A DNA stretch of 23,430 bases from a virus. The translations under genes were made by a program, and so were the position numbers. This document shows, one piece after another, positions 2,197-23,430 of this stretch; position 1 is the stretch's first letter; each line of letters opens with the position of its first letter. The notes under the pieces are model-generated. The model was not told the origin of the DNA and ran no database searches. It saw only the letters and a list, made by a program, of their open reading frames with translations. The stretch is from positions 1 to 23,430 of the IMG/VR virus record IMGVR_UViG_3300047497_000134; one strand, written 5' to 3'.

Positions 2197-4443
2197 TCAG
2201 TCGCCGTTGCGGAGATTGTTCATCGTCGCCGGATTCTGCCAGGCGTGCGCCCAATAGACCCGCATGGGCGAGGACTGCCCGGCGCCGACATTGACGACGA
2301 AGCGGTCGATATCGAAGACGCAGAATAGCCAGGTCTGGCCGGTCGGCGGCGGCGCGTAGCCGCTCGGGCAGGACGTGTAATGGATGACACGGATCAGATT
2401 GCCGTCGAGATACTTGGCGAGCGTTCCGTTGGCGATCGTCGTCGATGTGGCGGGGATCCACAGCAGCCCGGCGGTATGGATCTGGCCGGAAAAGGTCTGC
2501 AAGCCCGGAAGCTGGGTGTAATCGTTGAACGATCCCGAATTCCCATCGCAATAGCCCGAGGCGCAGGACGGCGTGCTCGCGCCGAGCTTGCCGTACCAGT
2601 CGTGCAGCGCCTGGGTCGCGGTCTGGACGTTGGCGAAGGTGGTCCCAAAGCCGGCCGTGCTGGTCGAGACGTTGGGCGTCGTGCTGAGATTGTACGTCCC
2701 GTTGCCGCCCGTACCGGTCCCAAGGGACGTGATATGCGTTCCGGCCGCGATACCCGGGCCGACGATCTGGGTGTTGACCGCCAGGGCCGTCCCAGAGAAG
2801 CCGGTGACCGTCAGGACGTTGCTGGCGATGGTGAAGCTGAAGCTCGAGGTGGTGCTGACATACCCCTCGAAGATGTCGGGCTCGCCGAAGTGCTCATCGC
2901 TGCTAGCGTCGCCCGGCCAAAGGTCCGACCCGAAGCCGTCGGCCGAGAGCTGGTGGGCGAAGCTTGCCAGCCACCACGACGGCCAGCTCTCCCCGATCGT
3001 CACGTTGACGGTGTTGGGATTATAGCTGAACGCCGCCTCGAAATAGCCCCCGCCGCCATAGGCCGTGCCGCAGAGATAGGGGCTGGCGGAGGTATAGCCG
3101 CCGGTCGTCAGCGGGCCGGAATAGATGTTCGGCGGCGCGCCGATCGTGGCGCTGCCATCGGAATTGAACACGACGTGGGACGAATTCATCCCCGACGCGC
3201 CCTCGATGCCGTTGGCCAGGAACCATTGTTTTCCGGGGGTGCAATTCGCGCTCGCGCTTTGCACATCGACGTTCGCCGCCGTCAGCGTCGATGAGTCGAG
3301 GGTCAGCTGGGTCATGCCCGCGGCGAGCGCCTGGGCCGGGACGGCGACCGTCTGCTTGAGGATCGAGACCGACTGGATCGGCAGACCGCTCCAAGGGCCC
3401 GTCGCGCCGCTGCCGATCGCCAGGGTGGGCGATGTGGGCTGGACCGTCACGATCGGCCCCGAACCGTAGCTGACGACCCAGGGCGAGGCCGAGGCGTAGG
3501 GCGTGCTGGGCGTGGCCTGGGTCAGACCGGCCAGGTCGGCCGAACGGGTGACGATCGCCGTCGTCGTCGGAATGTAGCTGAGCGGCTTGCTGCCCGGCGC
3601 GCACTGCGCACCATAGAAATAGGCGCTGTCGCCGACCGTGGGCGCCGGCGATCCGAAGACGTCGTCGGGCGCGAATACGGGGTGATAGGCGTCGGCGTTG
3701 GTCGGAACCCAACTGACCCAGATCTCCAACCAGCCGTTCGGCCCCGCGACCGAGCCGCTGTTCACCGCGCCGGTCGGCGTGAGCGACGGCGTGCCGCCCA
3801 GGCCGGTGACCTTGATCGTCGGTCCGGCGATGCTGGAATCCCAAACCGCGAGCTGCGCGGTCGTGGTCGTTCCCGCGTGGACATAGATCGAACAGGTCCA
3901 GGCGGTGACGCCATCGCCGGTGACGACGTTCTGACCCTCGATCCGGCCGTTGGTGCCGGTCCAGGTCTCGCGGCTGGCGTCGTGCGTGCCATCCGGCGAA
4001 TTCAGGTCCGTCGTGTTGTCGACGATCGCGATATTGCTAAACGTGTTGGTCCAGGAGGCGTTGTTGTACGCCTGGGACTGGATCACCGCGTTCTCGCTGG
4101 CGCCCTCGGCCGTCAGGCCCGCATTGGTGATGCGGAGGACGCCGTTGGCGAACGACTGGAGCGAGCCGTCGGTCTTGGCGGCGTAGCGGACGGTGGCGCC
4201 GGTTCCCGAGACCGACCCGCCGGAGCCGGTGAACCCGGTCAGGCCGGGCGGCGCCGGCGCGGGGCGACCCTTGTAGCAGTTGAACCCCGAGCCGTTGAAG
4301 CTCGCATAGAGCTGGTAGGCCGCGCATGAGCCCTGCGCGGTGCGCTGGGGGATTGGCACGCCGTTGACGGGCGCGGCGATCGTGGCGCTCGCCGAAACGA
4401 ACGCCAGAACGGCGAGAATGAAGGCTGGGACACGCACGATCAC
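2197..4443 (-). CDS. Exported multidomain protein with GH16-like glycosidase domain
   Basis: The 748-residue protein starts at a GTG (4443) overlapping the previous stop by 4 bp (GTGA). A Sec signal peptide is clear (VPAFILAVLAFVSASATIAAP). Residues about 115-300 look like a glycan-binding jelly roll of the sort seen in phage adhesins, ending in YIPTTTAIVTRSAD. Residues about 465-690 resemble the GH16 laminarinase/agarase fold: GGYFEAAF, WPSWWL, then GEPDIFE (Glu521, Asp523, Glu526, matching the ExDxxE catalytic motif apart from Pro522), and later IHTAGLLW. A small bacterial repeat domain (about 532-600, TLTVTGFSG-like) interrupts the catalytic fold. It probably cleaves a polysaccharide, outside the cytoplasm if the signal peptide works. 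The GH16 assignment is by motif only. Confidence 0.68.
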   Translation of the reverse strand: MIVRVPAFILAVLAFVSASATIAAPVNGVPIPQRTAQGSCAAYQLYASFNGSGFNCYKGRPAPAPPGLTGFTGSGGSVSGTGATVRYAAKTDGSLQSFANGVLRITNAGLTAEGASENAVIQSQAYNNASWTNTFSNIAIVDNTTDLNSPDGTHDASRETWTGTNGRIEGQNVVTGDGVTAWTCSIYVHAGTTTTAQLAVWDSSIAGPTIKVTGLGGTPSLTPTGAVNSGSVAGPNGWLEIWVSWVPTNADAYHPVFAPDDVFGSPAPTVGDSAYFYGAQCAPGSKPLSYIPTTTAIVTRSADLAGLTQATPSTPYASASPWVVSYGSGPIVTVQPTSPTLAIGSGATGPWSGLPIQSVSILKQTVAVPAQALAAGMTQLTLDSSTLTAANVDVQSASANCTPGKQWFLANGIEGASGMNSSHVVFNSDGSATIGAPPNIYSGPLTTGGYTSASPYLCGTAYGGGGYFEAAFSYNPNTVNVTIGESWPSWWLASFAHQLSADGFGSDLWPGDASSDEHFGEPDIFEGYVSTTSSFSFTIASNVLTVTGFSGTALAVNTQIVGPGIAAGTHITSLGTGTGGNGTYNLSTTPNVSTSTAGFGTTFANVQTATQALHDWYGKLGASTPSCASGYCDGNSGSFNDYTQLPGLQTFSGQIHTAGLLWIPATSTTIANGTLAKYLDGNLIRVIHYTSCPSGYAPPPTGQTWLFCVFDIDRFVVNVGAGQSSPMRVYWAHAWQNPATMNNLRNGD

Positions 4444-5336
4444 TTGTCCCGGATGCTGTTGGCGACGATCTTGAACACCTCGCCGGACGCGGGGGTGTAG
4501 GCATTGGTCACGCTGATCAGCGCATCGACATAGGTTTGTCCGCTCAAGGTCTGGTATTGAATCCAGCCCTGCGGGACGTTCGGCGTGCATTCGTAGAAGA
4601 CCTGGGCGGTCCCGTCATTGGTCGCTTGGCCGGACGTGCAGGCCAGCGAGCCGAGATAGGCCCCTGACGTGATGTCCGCCGCGTAGGGCCCGACATAGGC
4701 CGAAGCGTCGAAGAGGCCGGTCGTCGTCGGCGCGGCGCTGAACAGCCAGATGGTGAACTGGCCGGCGGTGCTGGAGCCGCTCTTTTCCAGCATCACCCGC
4801 CCAAGCGTCCCGGTCGCGCCGTTCGCGCCCGCGATCGTCACCTGAATCGGCGCGCAGGCGGTCCCGGACGTAAAGAGGCAAATCAGTTGGTTGCCGGTAT
4901 AGGCGGTTGTATTGGCGACCCGGGTGATCGATCCGACCTGGCCGACGCCCGTCAGGCCGCCGACGTTGTAGTTTCCGGATTGCGCGGCGTGGACCAGATC
5001 GGTCGTGCCGGGGGTGGTCTGGTCGGTCGTGACGACCCCAACCTTGGCGCTCCCGGCGAGAAGCGCGACGGAGCCGGCCTGGATATCGACGTTGAGGAAG
5101 CAGTTCGCATCCAACTCGATCGCCGAGATGCCGCCGCCCGTCAGGAGCCCTTGAGACAGGCTCAACGGAACCAGATTGGTTCCGCTGAACATCTGCAGGG
5201 TCTGCGTCGTCGATGACGCATCCTTGCCCGTCAGCGAGCCATAGGTGGGCTGCGTGAAGCACGCGGCCTGGGCCAGCGGCGCGCAGAGCAAGAGCGCCGC
5301 CCCCGCGAGGAGGGCGCCGATGTGGCGGATTTTCAT
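4440..5336 (-). CDS. Exported beta-rich protein, virion-like module
   Basis: The 298-residue protein has a strong Sec signal peptide (MKIRHIGALLAGAALLLCAP, probable cleavage after AQA). The mature part is Gly/Thr/Ala/Val-rich and should be beta-structured. Its central segment (RVANTTAYTGNQLI, then FTIWLFSAAPTTTGLFDASA and AYLGSLAC) resembles beta-sandwich modules I associate with phage structural proteins; this is recollection, not a search. It sits 12 bp downstream of the 965-residue exported gene and overlaps the GH16-like gene's GTG start, so the three are probably co-translated. No catalytic motif is visible. It may be a periplasmic or surface protein, or a virion protein with an unexpected leader. 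Confidence 0.6.
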   Translation of the reverse strand: MKIRHIGALLAGAALLLCAPLAQAACFTQPTYGSLTGKDASSTTQTLQMFSGTNLVPLSLSQGLLTGGGISAIELDANCFLNVDIQAGSVALLAGSAKVGVVTTDQTTPGTTDLVHAAQSGNYNVGGLTGVGQVGSITRVANTTAYTGNQLICLFTSGTACAPIQVTIAGANGATGTLGRVMLEKSGSSTAGQFTIWLFSAAPTTTGLFDASAYVGPYAADITSGAYLGSLACTSGQATNDGTAQVFYECTPNVPQGWIQYQTLSGQTYVDALISVTNAYTPASGEVFKIVANSIRDK

Positions 5337-20300: not shown

Positions 20301-20672
20301 TTATCGGTGATAGACCTCGTCCATTCGGTGCTTGGCCCCCTCGATCATCTCGGGATGGTCGAGGGCCTGGACGGTGATCCGCGCCAGGATCAGGTCGCTG
20401 GACAGGTCCAGGTCGCCGATCCGCGCCAGCACGGCCAGGAGGCGCTGGCGGTTGAAGCGGATGGCGGTCAGCCCGTCGCAGGCGATCGGCGGCTGGCGGC
20501 GCAGCACCAGGTATTCGGTGATCTTGCGCGAGACCGTCCGCCGGGCCTTGTCGACCTCGAGCTCGGACAATCGCAGGGCCGCCATGACCTGCTCGGGCGC
20601 GAGGCCGTTCGCCAGGTTCTGGAACACCAGCCGTCGGGTGCGGCCGATGTCCCTTCGCTCCGCTTCGGTCAT
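20301..20672 (-). CDS. Small phage protein upstream of the tail chaperone, HTH-like
   Basis: The 123-residue protein starts MTEAERRDIGRTRRLVFQNL. I chose ATG 20672 because the longer frame continues into the insertion element. Residues about 20-50 (ANGLAPEQVMAALRLSELEV) look like a helix-turn-helix; the rest is helical, including DLDLSSDLILARITVQALDH. I recall similar small proteins near tail genes of alphaproteobacterial prophages but cannot name a family. The insertion element ends 8 bp before its ATG, and there is no Shine-Dalgarno sequence in those 8 bp, so its own initiation signals were displaced. The tnpB stop is 7 bp upstream, so it may now be translated by coupling. An N-terminal truncation cannot be excluded. 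Confidence 0.62.
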   Translation of the reverse strand: MTEAERRDIGRTRRLVFQNLANGLAPEQVMAALRLSELEVDKARRTVSRKITEYLVLRRQPPIACDGLTAIRFNRQRLLAVLARIGDLDLSSDLILARITVQALDHPEMIEGAKHRMDEVYHR

Positions 20673-20679
20673 TTCGGAA

Positions 20680-21924
20680 TTACTGACTTTCGTGGTCACC
20701 CACTGAGCCGAGCATTCGCGTTTCAATGAGCCGACTTGATGGGGCGATCCCCTCAGCGGTCGCACTCTCCACGCGCGTTGCGCCATCGCTGGCGCGGTTC
20801 CCCGGTTCCTCCGGGTACCTGTAGAGATTCATGGCGGCGTTCTCGTCCCGCCCCAGCTTGACGCCGCAGCCGCACGAGTACCGCCGCTTGGTGAGCGGCA
20901 TGTCGTTCAGCGCGCCGCACCCGCTGCATGTGCGGGTGCTGGGGTATTCGGACGGGACGGCGATCAACTCCCGACCTCGCCACGCGGCCTTATAGGTCAC
21001 GAAGCGAAGCAGAGAGCCGATCGCCACGTCCGCCACCTGCTGGCCGAGGTAGGGCGTCTGGGCCATGGCCCGAACGTCCAGGGTCTCGACCACGAGAACA
21101 TCGGCTTTGGCTGTCAGCCGATGTGAAACCTGATGAAGGTGGTCCAGGCGGCGGCAACGCACCTTGCGGTGCAGGGCCGCCACACGGCGCACCTGAGCGG
21201 CCCGGCGGGCCGAACCCTTCTGACGCCGCGCCATGATGCGCTGCGCCTTCGCCAGCCGCCGCAGCGCCGCCTTAAGCGGCCTGGGCGGCTTGACCGTCTC
21301 GAAGCCCGTCCCGTCGAAGGTGGTGACCAGCGACTTCAGGCCCGCGTCGATACCCAGACGGGCGCCCGTGGCCGCCATAGGCTCGGGCGCCTCGCATTCG
21401 ATCTGAGCCGACAGGAGCCAGCGGTCGCCGTCGCGGACGGCGCGGCTCCCCAGTAGGCGGCCGACCGGCGGCTTGCCGCCACGGGTCCGCACGATCCCCA
21501 GCTTGGGAAGTCGGGCATGGCGCCCGTTCTGATCCAGGCGAGTGTTCTGGTTGACGAAGTAGACGGAGCCTTCGCCCCAGCGCTTCTTCTTGAAGCGCGG
21601 GAAGCCGCACTGGCGGCCGGCCTTGCGCTCGCTCAGCATCCGCCGCAGCGCTTTGTCCAGGCGCGCACAGACGTCCAGCAGGGTGTGGGCGGGCAGTTCG
21701 GCCAACCACGCCGTCTCCGGCTCATGCTTCCAGGCGACGGCCAGCTTTTGCAGGTCGGCCTTCCAGAGGAACGTCCCGTCCGCCTCGTACTGGCGGACCA
21801 CCTCGCCCAGCAGCCTGTTCCAGGCGCCGCGCGCATGGTTGGCCCAAAGGTCCAGCAGTCGGGACTGCTCCCGGTTAGGATAGAGGCGGCATTGCCAGCC
21901 GCGCGTGATCGGGTCCGGGCTCAG
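20680..21924 (-). CDS. tnpB: TnpB-like RNA-guided nuclease (OrfB family)
   Basis: The RuvC residues are present: Asp in GIDAGLKSL, Glu in VVETLDV and Asp in GRDENAAMNL (242, 329 and 409 when numbered from an upstream GTG at 22071). The N-terminal WQCRLYPNREQ and the FPRFKKKR region are typical of OrfB proteins, as is the zinc finger CSGCG. The second finger half is CGC rather than CxxC, one residue shorter than usual. The start is uncertain. Family likeness would place it near 21909, where an ATC stands where ATG would give MTRGWQCRLYP. I mark a CTG overlapping the transposase stop; the GTG at 22071 would add about 50 residues read out of frame over the transposase. The stop uses one flanking base. 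Probably catalytically intact. Confidence 0.85.
   Translation of the reverse strand: MSPDPITRGWQCRLYPNREQSRLLDLWANHARGAWNRLLGEVVRQYEADGTFLWKADLQKLAVAWKHEPETAWLAELPAHTLLDVCARLDKALRRMLSERKAGRQCGFPRFKKKRWGEGSVYFVNQNTRLDQNGRHARLPKLGIVRTRGGKPPVGRLLGSRAVRDGDRWLLSAQIECEAPEPMAATGARLGIDAGLKSLVTTFDGTGFETVKPPRPLKAALRRLAKAQRIMARRQKGSARRAAQVRRVAALHRKVRCRRLDHLHQVSHRLTAKADVLVVETLDVRAMAQTPYLGQQVADVAIGSLLRFVTYKAAWRGRELIAVPSEYPSTRTCSGCGALNDMPLTKRRYSCGCGVKLGRDENAAMNLYRYPEEPGNRASDGATRVESATAEGIAPSSRLIETRMLGSVGDHESQ
20681..20699. repeat. Terminal inverted repeat of the IS1595/TnpB element, tnpB end
   Basis: TACTGACTTTCGTGGTCAC is the exact reverse complement of 23316-23334. It also encodes the last residues of TnpB (DHESQ), and the TnpB stop TAA is completed by the first flanking base. 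Confidence 0.93.
20681..20830 (-). ncRNA. Possible omega/reRNA region at the 3' end of tnpB
   Basis: In IS200/IS605 elements the guide RNA scaffold for TnpB comes from the end of tnpB and the adjoining transposon end, and the guide from the DNA just outside. Here tnpB runs to the last base pair of the element, so a scaffold would have to overlap the coding end and the inverted repeat, and the guide would begin TTCCGAAATGACCGAAG (20679 downward) in the phage gene. The left limit given is arbitrary. This is an inference from family behaviour, with no RNA motif verified. Confidence 0.3.
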
Positions 21925-22847
21925 GCGACCAGCTCGCGCCAGCGCAGGCGCTGGCCCTGGGTGTGCAGCATGGTGTCGATCCGCGAGGCCGTGTCCGCCT
22001 TGCGCTCGTTCCAGCGGAAGGCGATTTCGGTCAGGTACCGATCCGTGTGCTTGTTCGAGAACCAATGCCACACGCCGATGATGGCACGCTTCACCGTCGC
22101 GTTGAACGATTCTGCGGTGTTGGAGTGGGCGACGACCGGGCCGCCGTCATAGCGGGCGTATTCGCCCTTGGAGTGGTTGACCCGCAGGTGGCGGTCGAAC
22201 TTGCGGCCGATCCAGCGATAGGCCGGAAGCTCGTCGGTGCAGAGAATGGTCCCCTCGCGGGATACGTTCTCATAGACGAAGGTGGCGATGGTCCGGGCCG
22301 AGTGGGTCATCCCCCGCTTGGCGCGCGCCCGGCCGCCGCGCTCGGCCGCCACCGTGACCATGGTGCGGCGGCTGCCGCCCCGGCCCTTGGGCTGGTCGTC
22401 ATCGCCGTCCCGCTGGCTCTTGGCGTCCTTGCGGCGCTTGCCACCCAGGTACGTCTCGTCGGCCTCGACGATGCCGCTCAGCATCCCCTCGCGGTCGTCC
22501 ATCATCCGGCGGATGCGCTGACCCAGGAACCACGCTGTCTTCTGGGTGATCCCCAGCTGCTCGGCCAGCTTGACCGACGACACGCCCTTGGACGACGCGG
22601 CGACCAGATACATGCCGGTGAACCACACCCGCAGCGGCAGGTGCGTGCCTTCGAACGGCGTGCCGTGGGCGGCGGTGAACTTGGCCCGGCAGTCGGTGCA
22701 GCGGCGATAGTGGGGGCGGCCCACCTGGTGCGACCGCACGCTGCCGCATTTGGGGCAGGACGGGCCGTCAGGCCAGCGCGCCGCCTCAAGATGCGCCCAG
22801 CAGGCGTCATCGTCGGGGAAGCGCTTCAGGAAGGCCAGGAGAGACAT
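21921..22847 (-). CDS. IS1595 / ISXO2-type DDE transposase
   Basis: The 308-residue protein has an N-terminal zinc ribbon (Cys31, Cys34, Cys50, Cys53: CPKC and CTDC) and the ISXO2-like catalytic domain: Asp130 in EADETYLGGK, Asp205 in CTDELPAY, and the HSNTAESFNATVKR segment (Asn243, Glu246) followed by WHWFSNKHTDRYLTEIAFR. Length is normal and there is no interruption, so it looks active. It cuts and pastes DNA at the 19-bp repeats. The ATG shares its A with the stop of the 65-residue ORF (TGATG), and its stop overlaps the tnpB start region, so the three genes are co-translated. Confidence 0.93.
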   Translation of the reverse strand: MSLLAFLKRFPDDDACWAHLEAARWPDGPSCPKCGSVRSHQVGRPHYRRCTDCRAKFTAAHGTPFEGTHLPLRVWFTGMYLVAASSKGVSSVKLAEQLGITQKTAWFLGQRIRRMMDDREGMLSGIVEADETYLGGKRRKDAKSQRDGDDDQPKGRGGSRRTMVTVAAERGGRARAKRGMTHSARTIATFVYENVSREGTILCTDELPAYRWIGRKFDRHLRVNHSKGEYARYDGGPVVAHSNTAESFNATVKRAIIGVWHWFSNKHTDRYLTEIAFRWNERKADTASRIDTMLHTQGQRLRWRELVA

Positions 22848-23044
22848 CAGCGCTGGCCGAAGCTCTCAAGGGCGCGGGCGGCTTCGAGGAACTGGCCCCA
22901 GGCCTGTTCCGGGACCTGCACCCAGATGTTGCCGGGGCGAAGCGCGGGCATGGCCGCAGGCTTCATGGGCGTGGCGACGATGGGCGCCGCCAGGAGCGCC
23001 GCGAACAGCGTGCGCCGTGGTATGGTCGATTCAGCTTGGGCCAC
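22847..23044 (-). CDS. Small accessory ORF coupled to the transposase
   Basis: The 65-residue protein starts at a GTG (23044), MAQAESTIPRRTLFAALLAA, with twin arginines and a short hydrophobic stretch resembling a Tat leader or membrane anchor, then Pro-rich linker and NIWVQVPEQAWGQFLEAARA. No family recognised. Its stop overlaps the transposase ATG (TGATG), so translation of the transposase is likely to depend on it. It may be a genuine accessory protein of the element or a leader peptide that sets transposase level. No strong Shine-Dalgarno sequence precedes the GTG. Confidence 0.55.
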   Translation of the reverse strand: MAQAESTIPRRTLFAALLAAPIVATPMKPAAMPALRPGNIWVQVPEQAWGQFLEAARALESFGQR

Positions 23045-23126
23045 GGGGTTCCATCCCTGGTTTGAGTTAGGACCGGAGCGAGGTTGGAGCCTTGCTTCGG
23101 TCCGCCATTATCTTTAGACAGTTATT
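23045..23126. promoter_or_regulatory. Divergent promoter region of the insertion element
   Basis: The 82-bp gap between the 65-residue ORF (minus) and the RHH gene (plus) must hold both start signals. The RHH-proximal part is AT-rich (CATTATCTTTAGACAGTTATT, just before ATG), unlike the rest of the window. A -10-like TATCTT with an upstream TTGGAG at 19 bp is possible but weak. A repressor bound here could control both directions. Confidence 0.35.
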
Positions 23127-23315
23127 ATGTCCGAGGCAATACCTTTCGAAAGAAAATCGCGCGGTCGCCCCAAGGTCGGAGCCACGACTGTGGGTGTGCG
23201 GTATCCGCCCGATCAGCTCGCCGCGATTGATGCTTGGATCGCAAAACAGCCCGACCCGAAGCCCAACCGCCCAGAGGCCGTGCGCCGCCTCACGGCGCTA
23301 GGGTTGTCAGTCTGA
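23127..23315 (+). CDS. Ribbon-helix-helix protein of the insertion element
   Basis: The 62-residue protein reads MSEAIPFERKSRGRPKVGAT and then VGVRYPPDQLAAIDAWI and NRPEAVRRLTALGL: a basic GRPK arm, a beta-strand, and two helices as in CopG/Arc-type ribbon-helix-helix DNA-binding proteins. It lies inside the terminal repeats, divergent from the transposase operon, and its stop touches the right repeat. A small DNA-binding protein in this position could repress the transposase-tnpB operon or assist the transposase at the ends. Either role is inference; the fold call rests on sequence pattern. Confidence 0.72.
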   Translation: MSEAIPFERKSRGRPKVGATTVGVRYPPDQLAAIDAWIAKQPDPKPNRPEAVRRLTALGLSV

Positions 23316-23334
23316 GTGACCACGAAAGTCAGTA
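23316..23334. repeat. Terminal inverted repeat of the IS1595/TnpB element, RHH end
   Basis: GTGACCACGAAAGTCAGTA is the exact reverse complement of 20681-20699. It begins directly after the RHH gene's stop codon. Confidence 0.93.
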
Positions 23335-23347
23335 GGCCCGATGCAAC

Positions 23348-23430
23348 TTAAAACACATACCCGTCGTACGCGAATGCGTTGAAATTCAACACCGCCTCGA
23401 ATACACGAAAGCGTGGTGAAAGCTCCGCGC
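23348..23430 (-). CDS. Possible 3' end of an unidentified gene at the window edge
   Basis: One minus-strand frame entering from the window edge is open for 26 codons and ends in TAA (23350-23348): AELSPRFRVFEAVLNFNAFA, then YDGYVF. It reads like a protein C-terminus but I do not recognise it. Codons such as CTT, TCA, CCA, CGT and GTA are atypical for the rest of the window, so the DNA beyond the insertion element may not be phage late-region DNA. Another frame is also open over this short stretch, so this is only a candidate. Confidence 0.3.
   Translation of the reverse strand, partial: AELSPRFRVFEAVLNFNAFAYDGYVF

Follow-up and report, generated by a model that had tools for sequence, protein, structure and literature searches.

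An IS1595-family insertion element pairing a DDE transposase with TnpB in a viral contig, and its relatives in bacterial genomes, plasmids and viruses

In positions 1 to 23,430 of the viral record IMGVR_UViG_3300047497_000134 of IMG/VR (the window), we found an insertion element of the IS1595 family that encodes both an ISXO2-type DDE transposase and a TnpB homologue (Table 1), and about 20 related loci in which a transposase of the same clade is followed directly by tnpB or a remnant of it. TnpB, the ancestor of CRISPR-Cas12, cuts DNA under the guidance of an RNA. In bacteria it has been linked to HUH and serine transposases, and the motif that these target is also the target-adjacent motif (TAM) of TnpB. 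Bacterial TnpB was stated by Bao and Jurka in 2013 to be confined to IS200/605 and IS607 (PMC3627910). A description of TnpB with IS1595 or ISXO2 was not found in the open-access literature, and priority is not certain.

Table 1. Coordinates of the element and of the features assigned within and beside it
Feature	Position	Strand	Basis
Whole IS1595-TnpB element	20675..23340	-	Ends aligned with L044, L003, L005 and L040-L043
Transposase-side terminal inverted repeat	23316..23340	-	Repeat search and alignment with relatives
TnpB-side terminal inverted repeat; codes the TnpB C-terminus HESQ and stop	20675..20699	-	Open reading frame list, repeats, alignment
IS1595 family (ISXO2-type) DDE transposase, 308 aa, intact	21921..22847	-	PF12762 1.3e-35, NF033547 1.3e-53
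TnpB RNA-guided endonuclease homologue, ~414 aa from probable CTG start	20680..21924	-	NF040570 3.9e-74
Predicted guide-RNA scaffold over the tnpB 3' end; terminal hairpin 20692-20703	20675..20830	-	Fold z -2.4, CGAATG
Predicted 20-nt guide from flanking phage DNA, AAATGACCGAAGCGGAGCGA	20655..20674	-	Analogy with IS200/IS605 TnpB
TA outside the transposase end, -10/-9, candidate TAM position	23349..23350	-	Motif common to relatives
65-aa open reading frame with Tat-like start; stop overlaps transposase ATG	22847..23044	-	Only in window copy
62-aa ribbon-helix-helix-like regulator gene, probably captured	23127..23315	+	Homologues in viral contigs without transposase

An earlier note, made from the sequence alone, had described an intact ISXO2-type DDE transposase and an apparently intact TnpB, overlapping in series with a small open reading frame (ORF) and enclosed by perfect 19-bp terminal repeats. 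Profile searches agreed with both protein assignments. The transposase matched PF12762 and PF12760 above the gathering thresholds and NF033547 above its cut-off, with the residues of the DDE region conserved; TnpB matched PF01385 and PF07282 in addition to NF040570, and its RuvC D-E-D and zinc-ribbon residues were all intact when aligned with solved and reference TnpBs. The serial overlap held for the small ORF, whose stop overlaps the transposase start (TGATG at 22847), but between the transposase and tnpB it exists only if tnpB starts at CTG 21924. No ATG or GTG is present at the homologous start, and this CTG overlaps the transposase stop (CTGA). The corresponding junctions in the relatives are GTGA, ATGA or TGATG, and the overlaps in L044 (GTGA) and L004 (ATGA) point to the CTG as the probable start. 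In both genes, codon position 3 was less conserved than positions 1 and 2, the pattern expected for proteins under selection.

The perfect 19-bp inverted repeats were confirmed at 20681-20699 and 23316-23334, with a roughly estimated chance expectation of 1e-5 for such a pair in 2.6 kb, and lie within imperfect ends of about 25 bp. Because nearly all related ends begin with C and a GGA-like triplet, the limits of the element were moved outward by comparison with the relatives, giving CGGAATTACTGACTTTCGTGGTCAC on the TnpB side (20675-20699) and CGGGCCTACTGACTTTCGTGGTCAC on the transposase side (23316-23340). The DDE_Tnp_IS1595 domain, zinc ribbon and terminal inverted repeats characteristic of the IS1595 family are all present in the element. 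These stand in place of the HUH Y1 transposase and subterminal hairpin ends of IS200/IS605, neither of which is in the element, and no serine recombinase domain, the feature of IS607, was found in it by Pfam and NCBIfam profile search.

The related loci are distributed among Acetobacteraceae genomes, Salipiger and Indioceanicola plasmids and three viral contigs. Scanning genomes with the window transposase gave L003, L004 and L005, which share 63-68% identity with it over the matched part, with remnants of the same TnpB right behind the transposase in L003 and L005 and a different, intact TnpB in L004. From a viral scan came L044 (IMGVR_UViG_3300025534_000213), a clean element of just two genes, on a viral contig of 191 kb, whose transposase lies at 3850-4785 and whose TnpB starts at GTGA and ends with HESQ-stop within the right repeat; L162 (IMGVR_UViG_3300025534_000004) is another intact element on a viral contig, with a type-B TnpB (types are defined below). 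A scan of viral contigs with a terminal repeat pattern gave no exact match. When 397 genomes of the same family were searched, 10 loci were found at E<=1e-75, nine of them with TnpB or a remnant directly downstream and the tenth stopping at a contig edge, and no TnpB was detected downstream of the weaker IS1595 matches (E 1e-60 to 1e-72). The plasmid members include WP_076625967.1 with WP_083698004.1 on pTPRO6 of Salipiger profundus, and WP_119681681.1 (a short transposase) with WP_119681680.1 in Indioceanicola profundi; the TnpBs of these plasmids are annotated merely as 'zinc ribbon domain-containing protein'.

Perfect 8-bp target duplications were found outside the transposase and tnpB at nine loci, namely L044 (AGGGTACG on both sides), L005 (GTGCTGTC), L132 (TTAAAAGT), L135 (ATCCGAGA), L137 (ACAGAATT), L138 (AAGTTACC), L141 (TTCTCCAT), L143 (ACGGCAGG) and L162 (TTTGAGCC), several being read by eye from printed flanks and others found by script; at L134 the flanks match at 7 of 8 positions. 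Joining the flanks of L141 restored a terC-like reading frame. Internal decay was evident in L005 (rearranged), L134, L137 (internal deletion), L138 (broken frame) and L141 (truncated transposase). The transposase-TnpB pair recurs inside shared ends and 8-bp duplications at many diverged loci, in agreement with the proposal of the earlier note that it is one evolved unit.

In a tree of 88 transposases, the 11 TnpB-bearing members fell in one cluster (support 83/94, with 98-100 for its three sub-clades), together with one other, L105. The latter, on a plasmid of Candidatus Methylocalor cossyra, is adjoined by an IS256 element, and beside its transposase no remnant of TnpB could be clearly recognised; TnpB may have been lost from this locus or may never have been gained. 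The TnpBs formed two distant clades, one IS605-like and one IS607-like, separated at 100/100. Type B grouped with IS607 TnpBs (Thermus, Bifidobacterium), and types A (the window, L044) and C (L131, L132), not clearly sisters, fell among IS605/IS607-like TnpBs. Since the two clades are fully supported, TnpB has been acquired at least twice, and since L004 combines an A-type transposase with a B-type TnpB, the nuclease has been exchanged once. The RuvC residues D, E and D are kept in all family TnpBs except that of L131, in which the frame is broken over the first D.

We found that tnpB ends within or beside the right terminal repeat in all types examined, with HESQ-stop, with tandem TGA TAG (several type-B copies) or with a TGA in the terminal hairpin (L132). 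The last ~150 nt fold better than shuffled sequences (z -1.7 to -3.0; for L132 and L135 the folded windows lie near, not exactly at, the element end), with a hairpin just before the end of the element, and a CGAATG motif ahead of this hairpin is conserved, as is the end itself, in L044, L005 and L132. By analogy with IS200/IS605, a guide RNA may be made from this right end; we treat it as predicted because most of the folded stretch is coding sequence. A common structure for the A- and C-type 3' ends was weakly supported, and the double changes in 8 of 58 pairs of the type-B 3' end, several of them inside the tnpB coding sequence, were not decisive.

The flanks of the elements differ on the two sides. 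On the transposase side, the base 5' of the duplication was A in 10 of 10 duplication-checked elements, being part of TA in 8 of the 10, and TA was present in 8 of 12 further, single-ended copies; on the TnpB side it was present in 1 of 10. Among 33 control elements, TnpB-less members of IS1595 with repeats and perfect duplications, TA was found in 2 and A in 11 (Fisher p=1.3e-5 and 1.8e-4, respectively, to be read as guides only, since the test ignores the relatedness of the copies and the motif was picked out by inspection). The TA was first noted in sub-clade A and then recurred in the type-B sub-clade and in plasmid copies; of the later additions, TA is present in L176 and L177, whose duplications match at 6 of 8 positions, and L174 has AT. 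The TA occupies the site at which a TAM must sit for TnpB to cut the empty site and, judged from these flanks, may be the TAM.

The data may be best explained by a family of IS1595 DDE elements of which TnpB is a structural component, co-translated and serving for gene drive or for retention of the donor site in the manner of IS200/IS605, a reading to which we assign a probability of about 0.68. The transposase would move the element, by cut-and-paste as is assumed for IS1595, and create the 8-bp duplications. The 3' end of the tnpB mRNA would run through the right repeat into flanking DNA and be processed by TnpB to a guide RNA, the guide comprising the duplication and the right flank. An empty site would then read TA-N8-right flank, and the guide N8-right flank. 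At an occupied site, the guide match would come after the element end, or else no more than 8 matching bases would follow the TA, and TnpB would not cut; at an element-free site, whether left by excision or present in a sister replicon or phage genome, TA lies 5' of the match, TnpB would cut, and repair from an occupied copy would restore the element. The earlier note had suggested that, with a DDE enzyme, TnpB could promote retention by cutting empty donor sites through a different logic; the evidence instead favours the same empty-site logic as in IS200/IS605, the guide match beginning with the 8-bp duplication. Donor-joint logic has been described for ISDra2 (PMC8612924) and plasmid drive for IS200/605 (PMC11870625). 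A broader proposition, that RNA-guided homing evolved in a bacterial DDE family, with several TnpB lineages in an IS1595 chassis, a TA-N8 target choice matching the TAM and each insertion programming the destruction of its own empty site to give drive in phages and plasmids, has in our judgement even odds.

Several observations weigh against a homing role. The window copy has no 8-bp duplication (GGTCATTT and ATGCAACT at its two flanks), an Rfam search of the 3' end matched no family, CA replaces TA in 2 of the 10 duplication-checked copies, and TA is absent in some single-ended copies (L003, L131, L072, L163, L174). The TA flank is also common to two distant TnpB types, which fits a target preference of the transposase as well as a TAM, and the TnpB-less controls have a one-sided preference of their own, a G at +2 beyond the cargo-side duplication in 21 of 33. 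TnpB might accordingly be a passenger, a cargo nuclease for defence or for use against other elements that is unrelated to the donor site, with TA due to the transposase; the sharing of TA by unrelated TnpB types, the swapping of these types and the many TnpB-less IS1595 relatives with other cargo ORFs at the same position would all suit it. We nevertheless consider a passenger role unlikely: every type examined has tnpB coupled to the stop of the transposase and terminating in or next to the right repeat, as a right-end guide RNA needs, and the TA is one-sided, on the side that a TAM requires. Symmetry is expected of a DDE strand-transfer complex, and the one-sided TA thus suggests selection through TnpB; given the +2 G of the controls, the transposase may also be its cause. 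Far less probable is a chance nesting, in which a tnpB-only element lies within an IS1595 element or two insertions are adjacent. TnpB is indeed abundant (3155 plasmid records match), but the same arrangement occurs at about 20 diverged loci with common ends and with duplications outside both genes. Neither ends bounding the transposase alone nor separate ends around tnpB, the arrangements by which the earlier note would have recognised such nesting, were seen in the relatives, and we rejected this explanation as refuted by the related copies.

The window copy itself differs from its relatives in the 466 bp, compared with a few tens of bp, that separate the transposase-side repeat from the transposase. 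This extra DNA holds the ribbon-helix-helix (RHH)-like gene and the 65-aa ORF, which, to the earlier note, suggested dedicated control within a four-gene element. We found both only in the window copy, and relatives of the RHH-like protein occur on 6 viral contigs in which no IS1595 transposase or TnpB was detected; a conserved control module was therefore rejected, and the two genes look like captured DNA. The ORF of the supposed RHH gene is present, but its 62-aa product matched none of the Pfam or NCBIfam models at E<0.1, and the label derives solely from resemblance to short GRPKVGAT.. proteins, a family of ~60-70 aa (KSRGRPKVGAT..) found in several viral contigs (L156-L161). It is somewhat less than an even chance that the window copy is decayed or rearranged, its transposase end re-formed with the captured DNA and the whole no longer mobile as a unit. 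The long spacing, the CTG start of tnpB, the missing target duplication and the RHH homologues apart from any element agree with such decay, but all ORFs are open and both ends are perfect over 19 bp, and decay would bear on this single copy, not on the family. As the duplication, which its closest relatives L044 and L005 do have, is absent, the outer ends of the window copy are placed by the repeats alone, and no similar phage DNA was found from which its empty site could be read.

IS1595 elements make 8-bp duplications and belong with the eukaryotic Merlin transposons (PMC8101967, PMC12561309). The present family shares with other ISXO2-like elements the DDE_Tnp_IS1595 and zinc-ribbon domains, inverted repeats, 8-bp duplications and a tendency, common in the relatives found, to carry cargo; it differs in having TnpB as this cargo, fixed in one clade, and in the one-sided TA flank. 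With IS200/IS605 elements of the ISDra2 type it shares an intact-RuvC TnpB at the right end, a structured 3' end (predicted here) and a motif 5' of the empty-site target (PMC8612924, PMC11870625), but in place of HUH TnpA it has a DDE transposase, with inverted repeats and a target duplication, and its motif lies 8 bp from the element. The type-B TnpBs group with those of IS607, whose serine recombinase is replaced here by an IS1595 transposase. A parallel is Fanzor1, which is related to TnpB, has been captured by DDE transposons unrelated to one another and is found in eukaryotic Mariner, IS4, Sola, MuDr and Helitron elements (PMC3627910), whereas the present case is bacterial, concerns IS1595 and involves TnpB proper. 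If the homing reading is true, TnpB homing would be transferable between transposition chemistries, as is suggested for eukaryotes by Fanzors, having entered a duplication-making DDE family by at least two acquisitions. The family further contributes compact TnpBs from two lineages, for which a TA-type TAM is predicted, and the swap between L004 and L044 could show whether the TAM follows the transposase or the nuclease. L044 (A-type) and L162 (B-type), both intact and on large viral contigs of one metagenome, make that metagenome well suited to a search for occupied and empty alleles.

TnpB-less IS1595 elements with 8-bp duplications and other cargo include L012, L018, L020, L030, L119, L124, L016, L095 and others. 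By eye, the cargo is a C5-methyltransferase and a second gene in L012, an adenine-methyltransferase-like gene and a second gene in L018, and conserved ORFs elsewhere. In the controls, the C at -10 that would match the +2 G is not equally enriched (10/33). At L136 (G740:C48), an A-type transposase with a partial end of its own has a type-B end (CGGAACTATC..) outside it, upstream of 3099, and this locus is possibly a nested or hybrid element. In L005, two transposase-side ends lie in tandem at 1750-2300, separated by about 490 bp and both with TA at -10/-9, suggesting successive insertions.
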